A DNA stretch of 64,000 nt from Sulfuritalea sp. (GTDB lineage Bacteria > Pseudomonadota > Gammaproteobacteria > Burkholderiales > Rhodocyclaceae). The stretch covers positions 1 through 64,000 of the forward strand of contig JAUSCI010000072.1 of assembly GCA_030651305.1 (NCBI GenBank). Reading direction: 5' to 3'. A program made the translations under genes and the position numbers. The notes beneath the pieces are model-generated. The model had not been told where the DNA came from. It made no database searches and saw nothing but the letters and a program-made list of their open reading frames with translations. The number at the start of each line of letters is the position of its first letter. Position 1 is the first letter of the stretch. Shown here piece by piece: positions 61,826-64,000 of the stretch.

Positions 61826-63028
61826 TCAGTCGGCCTTACAACTGCGGAAGCCGACGAAAATGTCGTCACGCTGCGGTTCGTAGTAGTTGCGGTAGCGCGG
61901 CTTGCGCATGCGCTCATGCGTGGCGAAAGAACCGCCGCGTACGCTGCGGTGGGTGTGGAAAAATGGCGCAGAGTATTCGGCGTAGGGGTCGGGGCTGAAG
62001 CCCGGATAAGGCGCAAACGCGCTGGCGGTCCATTCCCAGACTTGCGTTCCCCAGTCGAAATTGGGGGTGTGAAGGGCGGCATATTCCCACTCCGCTTCGC
62101 TCGGCAGGCGGCGGCCGGCCCAGCAGCACCAGGCTTCGGCTTCATGCGCCGTGACGTGCATCGCCGCTTGTGCGGGCGCCAGGTCGATCCATGACGCGAA
62201 GCGCCGCTGTTGCCAGATTCCTTCCTTGTTGCGCCAGTAGCGCGGCATGGTTTGGCCCGTGGCGGCGAGCCATGCCTGGCCGCTTGCCGACCACCAGTGC
62301 GGCTGTCGATAGCCACCTGCCTCGACGAATTGCAGATAGTCCGAATTTCTCACCGGCGTCATTGAAATTGCAAAGCTTTCGACGCGCAGCGGATATGCCC
62401 ACTTCTCGTTGTCGAAGAAGAAGCCCTTGCCTGTCGGCGAGCTGCCCATCAGGAACTCGCCGCCGGGCAGCGTGATGTCGCGCGCCGGCGGCAAGTCGCC
62501 CAGTTCATCCGGAGCCGGCCAGGCCAGCGTTTGCCGGGTATAGCGGAAGGCCTCGTCGTGCATGTCCTCATGGAACAGTGCCAAGCGGTGAAAGTAGAGC
62601 GCGGGGTCCGTGTCCGGCAAAGCCTGCAAGGTGCCCAGCGCGCCGTCGAGCGTATCGTCGAGATAACGCTGGGTGGTATCCCAGTCCGGCAGATCGAGCT
62701 GCCAGCGGCTGTCATGCGGGACATGGACCGAGTCGTACCAGCGGTCGGCGTCCGGCAGGCGGGAAGGGCGCGGCGCCGCCGCTTCGCCCCGGTAACGCTG
62801 ACACCAGTACTCCATGAACCAGGCGACGTGGCCGAGTTCCCACAGCGGCGGGTTGATGATGGCAAGGCAGGGTACGCGCAAGGGATCGGGCGAGTTGGCG
62901 CCTTCGACGCTGACGCCATCCGTCCAGGCCGCGAACTCGTCGAGCACGCTGATCGTATAATCGCGTGCATCCTGCAGTGCTCCGGCGAGTAGTGTTTTGT
63001 CGGCAGTTCTCAAATCCGGCATGGCCAT
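61826..63028 (-). CDS. senA: Selenoneine synthase SenA (EgtB-like)
   Basis: The 400-residue protein is an EgtB-type non-haem iron enzyme. An N-terminal DinB-like domain holds the iron ligands in WELGHVAWFMEYW and the HxxxH of LFHEDMHDEAF. A C-terminal FGE-sulfatase-like domain has ITLPGGEFLMGS, LPSEAEWEYAAL and RSVRGGSFATHERM. EgtB-like enzymes join sulfur or selenium donors to hercynine. I prefer SenA over EgtB because a SenB-type glycosyltransferase lies divergently next to it. SenA couples a selenosugar to hercynine. No EgtD is present in the window, so hercynine must come from elsewhere. Its ribosome binding site AGGAGG (63036-63041) lies inside the senB coding sequence, seven bases before the ATG at 63028. 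Confidence 0.82.
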   Translation of the reverse strand: MAMPDLRTADKTLLAGALQDARDYTISVLDEFAAWTDGVSVEGANSPDPLRVPCLAIINPPLWELGHVAWFMEYWCQRYRGEAAAPRPSRLPDADRWYDSVHVPHDSRWQLDLPDWDTTQRYLDDTLDGALGTLQALPDTDPALYFHRLALFHEDMHDEAFRYTRQTLAWPAPDELGDLPPARDITLPGGEFLMGSSPTGKGFFFDNEKWAYPLRVESFAISMTPVRNSDYLQFVEAGGYRQPHWWSASGQAWLAATGQTMPRYWRNKEGIWQQRRFASWIDLAPAQAAMHVTAHEAEAWCCWAGRRLPSEAEWEYAALHTPNFDWGTQVWEWTASAFAPYPGFSPDPYAEYSAPFFHTHRSVRGGSFATHERMRKPRYRNYYEPQRDDIFVGFRSCKAD

Positions 63029-63029
63029 G
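63020..63029. other. Palindrome shared by the senA and senB start codons
   Basis: CATGGCCATG is its own reverse complement and supplies two ATG triplets to each strand. The plus-strand ATGs are at 63021 and 63027; the minus-strand ATGs are at 63028 and 63022. The two divergent genes therefore overlap at their 5' ends and have no intergenic promoter space. Confidence 0.9.
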
Positions 63030-63995
63030 ACATCTCCTCCTTCCGTCGTCATTATCAGCCCGGCGCTGGCCAGCGCCAACAACGGCAACTGGCATACGGC
63101 GAGACGCTGGGCGCGCTGCCTCGCTCCCCAAGCGAGAGTGCGTATCGAGCGCGAATGGAGCGGTGCCGCTGACGACCTGATGATCGCCCTCCATGCGCGG
63201 CGCTCGGCGGCTTCGATAGCGGCGTTTGCGGCACGCTATCCGCAGCGGCCGGTGGCACTGGTGCTGACCGGCACCGATCTCTACCGCGACATTCGCGTCG
63301 ATGAACAGGCGCAGCGCTCGCTGCTGCTGGCGGACCGCCTGATACTGCTGCAGGCAGAGGGCGTGCACGAGTTGTCGCCGGAGTATGCCGCCAAGGCCAT
63401 GGTGATATACCAGTCGGCACGTGCGCTGGCGCCGGCCCGGCGCAGCCGGCGTCACTTCGATCTGGCGCTGGTCGGACATCAGCGGCCCGAGAAGGATCCG
63501 CTCACCGCCATCCGCGCCTTGTTGCGCCTGCCCGCCGACCTGCCGGTGCGCCTGTTTCATGTCGGCGGCATGCTGGACGCCGAATTGGCCCAGCACGTGG
63601 CTGAGTTGGGCGCGCGGGACATCCGTTACCACTGGCTCGGCGCCTTGTCGCAGGCGGCAACACGCCAGCGCATCAAACGTTGCCACCTGCTGCTGCTGCC
63701 CTCGCTTATGGAAGGCGGCGCCAACGTATTGATCGAAGCCGTGACCAGCGGCGTGCCGGTATTGGGCAGCGATATTCCCGGCAATCGCGGCATGCTCGGC
63801 GCCGACTATCCCGGCTGGTTTCCGGTCGGCGATGCACAGCGACTGACACAACTGATCCTGGCGGCGGTACGCGATCCGCATTACTACGCAGACTTGTCCC
63901 GACGCTGCGCCGAGCGGGTATCCTTGTTCACCCCGGCGCACGAATGCGCCGCTGTTTGCAGTCTTCTTGAAATGACCAGGTTACCGAAACAATGA
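63027..63995 (+). CDS. senB: Selenosugar synthase SenB (GT-B glycosyltransferase)
   Basis: The 322-residue protein is a retaining-type GT-B glycosyltransferase of the SenB group. It opens PPSVVIISPALASANNGNWH, then MIALHARRSAASIAAF and ALVLTGTDLYRDI, the last being a hallmark. The C-terminal half has LVGHQRPEKDPLTAIRALLR and EGGANVLIEAVTSGVPVL, which bind the sugar nucleotide. SenB makes a selenosugar from selenophosphate and a UDP-sugar. I chose the ATG at 63027; ATG 63021 or TTG 62997 are alternatives, as no clear ribosome binding site precedes any of them. The next gene starts within its stop (ATGA). Confidence 0.82.
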   Translation: MTSPPSVVIISPALASANNGNWHTARRWARCLAPQARVRIEREWSGAADDLMIALHARRSAASIAAFAARYPQRPVALVLTGTDLYRDIRVDEQAQRSLLLADRLILLQAEGVHELSPEYAAKAMVIYQSARALAPARRSRRHFDLALVGHQRPEKDPLTAIRALLRLPADLPVRLFHVGGMLDAELAQHVAELGARDIRYHWLGALSQAATRQRIKRCHLLLLPSLMEGGANVLIEAVTSGVPVLGSDIPGNRGMLGADYPGWFPVGDAQRLTQLILAAVRDPHYYADLSRRCAERVSLFTPAHECAAVCSLLEMTRLPKQ

Positions 63996-64000
63996 ACTCC
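63992..64000 (+). CDS. Start of a third gene, probably selD/senC (truncated by window end)
   Basis: An ATG at 63992 overlaps the senB stop as ATGA, and three codons (Met-Asn-Ser) are visible. The overlap indicates translational coupling with senB. In known selenoneine clusters a selenophosphate synthetase gene accompanies senA and senB, so I expect selD here. The identification is context only. Confidence 0.35.

Follow-up and report, generated by a model that had tools for sequence, protein, structure and literature searches.

The sen gene cluster was reportedly described in Variovorax paradoxus by Kayrouz in 2022. The locus analysed here, from a Sulfuritalea sp., shares with that cluster the SenA, SenB and SenC/SelD families and the order of senB followed by selD, whereas the start codons of senA and senB overlap here, and SenB carries the motif EGGANV in place of EGGAHV, which is reported together with a catalytic lysine (K158) in the available part of PMC10891094. 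The gene orientation, start overlap and promoters of the sen cluster are not described in PMC9814287 or in the available parts of PMC10702425 and PMC10891094, and no title on the regulation of sen genes stands among the matches listed for selenoneine or the sen genes.

For the arrangement itself, three systems can be compared, each as given in the accessible part of its source. In Streptomyces coelicolor, the scbA and scbR transcripts overlap over 53 bp beginning at the sites where they start, and both collisions and sense–antisense pairing have been modelled (PMC3134472). The senA and senB transcripts would likewise overlap from their starts (by an inferred length of about 77), but for scbA and scbR reported starts are available and one of the products, ScbR, is a regulator, whereas here both products are enzymes, the starts are predicted and the coding sequences overlap too. 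In P2-like phages, e.g., pR–pL of phage 186, face-to-face promoters are situated 40–60 bp apart (PMC7498355), which resembles the opposed, closely spaced promoters predicted here; however, the phage pair forms a lysis–lysogeny switch with dedicated repressors, and no such regulator was identified at this locus. Finally, divergent gene overlaps number 457, about 1% of the overlaps counted in PMC2478687, and all 75 of those longer than 60 bp were called misannotations. The 5′ coding ends overlap in the short divergent cases as they do here, and, unlike the overlaps above 60 bp, that of senA and senB is short and conserved.

The window, that is, the whole stretch of 64,000 nucleotides that was analysed (contig JAUSCI010000072.1 of assembly GCA_030651305.1), is followed by a further 357 bases of the same contig, and its features are collected in Table 1. 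The gene calls of the preliminary description, senA and senB, are upheld by curated equivalog profiles: SenA scores 522 bits against NF041186 (cut-off 420) and 233 bits against the EgtB profile, under the cut-off of 360, and SenB scores 400 bits against TIGR04348 (cut-off 300). The stop of senB and the start of senC (selD) overlap as ATGA, with the senC frame opening at ATG 63992; the gene beyond this point, which the preliminary description expected to be SelD, does match TIGR00476 (175.8 bits, cut-off 125) over positions 1–112 only, where the contig stops at 64357. EgtD, the source of hercynine, is present in the same genome on a separate contig (G000:C64:4170-5075, 375 bits, cut-off 290.9). 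In addition, a second, full selD with about 78% DNA identity to the start of senC shares that contig with egtD (L134, G000:C64:1-6000), and in several relatives egtD lies just past senC on the opposite strand.

Table 1. Observed and predicted features of the senA/senB junction, in window coordinates.
Feature	Position	Strand	Remarks
senA, selenoneine synthase (predicted)	63028..61826	-	ATG 63028 (or 63022); NF041186 match, ORF
senB, selenosugar synthase (predicted)	63021..63995	+	ATG 63021 (or 63027); TIGR04348 match
senC/selD start	63992..64000 in window, on to contig end 64357	+	SelD N-terminus, TIGR00476
Shared start block CATGGCCATG	63020..63029	both	start overlap possible in 24/24 close loci, exact palindrome in 1/24
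senA Shine-Dalgarno AAGGAGG	63036..63042	-	within senB codons 6-8; match of 5-7 bases in 24/24 close loci
Predicted senA -10 GATAAT	63051..63056	-	within senB codons 11-12
Predicted senA -35 TTGGCG (TTGGCA in 19/24)	63074..63079	-	17-nt spacer; last base confounded with hairpin
Predicted senB -10 TATAAT	62956..62961	+	within codons 23-25 of senA; -35 not recognisable
Inferred region transcribed on both strands	62968..63044	both	77 nt, between predicted transcription starts
Inverted repeat / predicted mRNA hairpin	63069..63093	+	senB codons 17-25, overlaps predicted senA -35

Relatives of the locus were taken from two samples. In the first, the best 80 of 103 confirmed senB relatives were fetched, a sample tilted to close relatives in which L069 is a duplicate of L068; senA is present in 74 of these 80 loci and divergent from senB in all 74, and it was not found within the stretch examined in the other six. 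In the second, a phylum-wide sample of 398 genomes, 12 carry senB besides the source genome: senA is divergent in seven of them and on the same strand in none, and for the other five no senA was found within the short flanking sequences. The preliminary description had regarded the divergent layout as unusual, which these counts contradict; divergent senA and senB are the rule in the sampled loci. The distance between the two genes is about 2.2 kb in eight Polaromonas loci, in one of which (L036, 1550-3421) the interval contains an ORF of 623 aa. The close comparisons below are based on 24 loci including the window, with SenB identity of at least 74% and duplicates removed (L052, a senB fragment, was dropped, as were L001 and the loci from L085 onward where they duplicate an included locus). 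The distant set consists of 73 of 74 loci, L115 being left out because it has no core match, and its members mostly have a gap between the extrapolated senA and senB starts.

SenB itself varies across these sets. EGGANV is found in 24/24 close and 23/73 distant loci, EGGAHV in 27/73 distant loci and EGGAQV in 12 distant loci; the histidine of EGGAHV is not universal. In 97 of 98 loci there is an EK-P match, which was judged by eye to be the context of K158 and is unaligned to the V. paradoxus SenB. The senB type of the window (at least 75% identity) occurs in 23 of the 31 genomes of one genus and a type with 48–52% identity in seven (G007, G008, G016, G022, G026, G027 and G030), while G067, of another genus, has the type of the window, a distribution that suggests replacement or transfer. 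Furthermore, in L013, L094 and partly L017, a near-identical sequence starting with GAAAACGAAGTTTCAGTGGAGGCT, perhaps a small repeat element, lengthens the C-terminus of senB before senC.

The starts of senA and senB overlap, as the preliminary description had claimed. On the + strand, the shared block contains ATG at 63021 and 63027 in the senB frame, and on the - strand ATG at 63028 and 63022 in the senA frame. An overlap of 8 or 2 bp is possible in all 24 close loci and unavoidable among the considered starts in 18 of them; in the window and five other close loci, the innermost start pair (senA 63022 with senB 63027 in the window) would give a 4-bp gap. ATG 63028 of senA is found in 22/24 close loci, with L011 and L021 starting only at 63022, and senB begins with GTG or ATG at 63021, or with ATG at 63027. 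In the window, senB has no further start codon from 63027 to codon 40, and the TIGR04348 alignment of its product begins at residue 9; the earliest later start in the close loci is a TTG at codon 16, in three of them (L018, L019 and L076). Two upstream candidates were rejected: ATG 63052 for senA, which is separated from the gene by a stop in the same frame in L022 and L076 and does not exist in L021, and TTG 62997 for senB, which is missing in 11/24 close loci. The overlap is thus conserved and not a choice of annotation, the window being among the 6/24 loci with a possible 4-bp gap, and conservation concerns the overlapping of the starts and not the start codons, which vary.

The ribosome sites of the two genes differ. 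AAGGAGG ends 7 nt ahead of the senA ATG 63028, and within 20 nt the match to the Shine-Dalgarno consensus in the close loci is 5 bases in 15, 6 in one and 7 in eight; codon S8 of senB, which overlies this site, is TCC in 23/24. No consensus match of at least 3 bases is found in the 20 nt before 63021, so senB is probably weakly translated in the window. Among the 24 close loci, such a match before senB is lacking in eight including the window and is 3 bases long in ten, 4 in one and 5 in five. Both observations of the preliminary description, a strong senA site within senB and no clear site for senB, hold for the window, although some relatives lack the clear contrast between the two genes that is seen there.

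Candidate promoters of the sigma-70 type converge from the two sides of the starts, that of senA with a -10 and a -35 and that of senB with a -10 only. When the loci are placed side by side, TTGGCA-17-GATAAT is seen antisense to senB and CGTATAAT antisense to senA, and the consensus of the senA site, TTGGCR-17-GATAAT, lies antisense to senB codons 11-20. Its conservation was assessed by a permutation in which whole codon columns were swapped between those positions of senA, senB and senC that encode an identical amino acid, so that protein and relatedness were kept; the highest-scoring site within the first 60 codons was counted, for a motif that had been spotted before testing. Antisense to senB codons 1-60, one site reaches a mean of 9.58/12 matches, a value equalled in 0/2000 permutations; the sense strand of the same codons gives 6.67/12, and the senC control is ordinary (1591/2000). 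The senA -10 alone is marginal (85/2000), and when the S18 base is ignored or held native, the senA promoter is reached by 4/1000 permutations, which is weaker than 0/2000. A score of at least 9/12 is found in 21/24 close loci vs 5/73 distant loci, with weaker -10 elements in L011, L021 and L019. A consensus promoter scan of the window picks up the senA site as well as a promoter-like site on the + strand at 63027-63055, within senB.

For senB, TATAAT is present at the -10 position in 22/24 close loci (all except L010 and L023), and antisense to senA it reaches a mean of 5.63/6, equalled in 5/2000 permutations. No -35 was found for senB: the 12-base promoter score is reached by 171/2000 permutations, and the senB -10 is absent from the output of the consensus scan of the window. 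As a separate observation, many distant loci (several of L024-L039) have TGTGCGATAGT shortly before the GTG or ATG of senB, which resembles an extended -10 from which senB mRNA would start without a leader. The results of 0/2000 and 5/2000 lend comparative support to the proposal in the preliminary description that the promoters lie within the opposite reading frames, which is probably the case.

Promoter-like hexamers are conserved at codon level, and among the first 60 codons of senB those that are near-fixed (at least 85%) although in the minority overall (less than 35%) are S8, I11 and S18, which map onto the Shine-Dalgarno, -10 and -35 of senA, respectively; over senA, senB and senC together, 31 of 763 columns are of this kind. 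It is possible, if doubtful, that the overlap is real while these codons serve the folding of senB mRNA or provide, in the inverted repeat at 63069-63093, a site for DNA binding, the promoters being weak, unmarked or elsewhere. The hairpin, with the stem GCCAGUGCC-N6-GGCAACUGGC closed in senB mRNA by S18 AGT, speaks for this explanation: equal stability of codons 17-25 is reached in 0/300 permutations, they form the most stable 9-codon window of senB examined, and in 22/24 close loci the hairpin ranks among the strongest 5% of synonymous versions, being weaker elsewhere (20/65 and 4/8). S18 AGT strengthens the 5′ fold of senB in 17/18 loci, and its change to AGC weakens the leader fold by a mean of 2.5 kcal/mol; codon S18 is accordingly ambiguous, serving either as a base of the senA -35 or as a base of the hairpin. 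However, the same explanation leaves I11 ATT and the TATAAT in senA unaccounted for. The folding of senB mRNA does not explain I11 ATT: altering this codon alone has little consistent influence, with a stronger fold in six of 22 loci, a weaker one in four and no difference in 12. Moreover, the centre of the hairpin lies about 60 nt into senB, outside the initiation window, and the native codons hardly alter that window (unchanged in 20/24, weaker in four). The native senB leader with 26 codons folds more strongly in 22/24 close loci, and the idea that codons were selected to loosen the mRNA around the starts was set aside as unsupported. The one Rfam match was below threshold (E 0.46) and was taken as chance.

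It is improbable that the conserved sequences reflect only protein conservation, codon bias and shared ancestry, with no special marking of promoters. Low synonymous change is also seen in other windows of senB and senC, some of them equally or more conserved, and in distant loci the protein motif alone gives about 7/12 matches at the senA site, both of which fit such an origin. Nevertheless, the permutation of whole columns, in which ancestry and protein are kept, fails to reproduce the sites (0 and 5/2000), and the near-fixed codons are minority ones, e.g., AGT with 11% and ATT with 26% of overall usage. Sliding-window synonymous conservation was rejected as proof of the promoters, as it is not significant: senA codons 22-30 are at 268/1000 permutations, and the minimum over all windows falls at senB 295-302, away from the junction, with 89/1000. 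Rare codons are near-fixed in a second stretch, close to the 3′ end of senB at 63897-63956 (codons 293-312, GGGTATCCTTGTT), with V300 as GTA in 21/21 and L302 as TTG in 20/23.

As for the start block, the window holds a single copy of CATGGCCATG against a chance expectation of 0.20, and at least one copy occurs in 17/100 shuffles, so that the string by itself is unremarkable. That the palindrome is an operator or the core of a single bidirectional promoter co-controlling senA and senB is scarcely credible: its symmetry about the junction and its single copy in the window would suit such a role, but the conservation comparison proposed in the preliminary description contradicts it, because the palindrome is exact only in the window among the 24 close loci (the equivalents elsewhere being CGTGTCCATC, CATTTCCATG, CATGACTAAT and others) and CATG is inherently palindromic. 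It is a coincidence of start codons, without a role of its own.

The reading with overlapping starts and embedded, facing promoters is judged moderately likely as a whole, including mutual hindrance. In this reading, the junction would consist of the 5′ ends of a standard divergent locus, senA on one side and senB-senC on the other, with no intergenic space left, the start codons overlapping by 2–8 bp throughout one Sulfuritalea-like lineage; therefore each promoter would sit in the codons of the other gene. SenA would be transcribed from TTGGCR-17-GATAAT (63079..63051, -) with a leader of about 16 nt, little beyond its Shine-Dalgarno, whereas the leader of senB-senC, transcribed from the TATAAT at 62956-62961, would measure about 53 nt. 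Transcription may start near 63044 (-) and 62968 (+), placed about 7 nt downstream of each -10. Since the predicted promoters face each other, the senA and senB mRNAs would be complementary over about 77 nucleotides at their 5′ ends; polymerases would stand opposed across about 77 bp, and the firing of one promoter should hinder the other. This predicted geometry favours transcriptional interference between senA and senB.

A further step can be put forward tentatively, as a rather unlikely extension: senA and senBC may form a self-opposing switch lying wholly in coding sequence, with convergent promoters placed where the N-termini of SenB and SenA are encoded. The mRNAs would then be complementary over about 77 nt at their 5′ ends, a stretch that takes in the senA ribosome site and the start codons of the two genes, and the inverted repeat on the senA -35 would act as operator or hairpin. 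Such a switch would set the ratio between the supply of selenosugar (SenB/SenC) and its use (SenA), and would limit free reactive selenosugar. If the embedded promoters are real, about 140 bp would encode two enzyme N-termini, two promoters and one ribosome site, and the locus would be a clean case for the evolution of promoters in coding sequence and for opposed transcription that balances a pathway.
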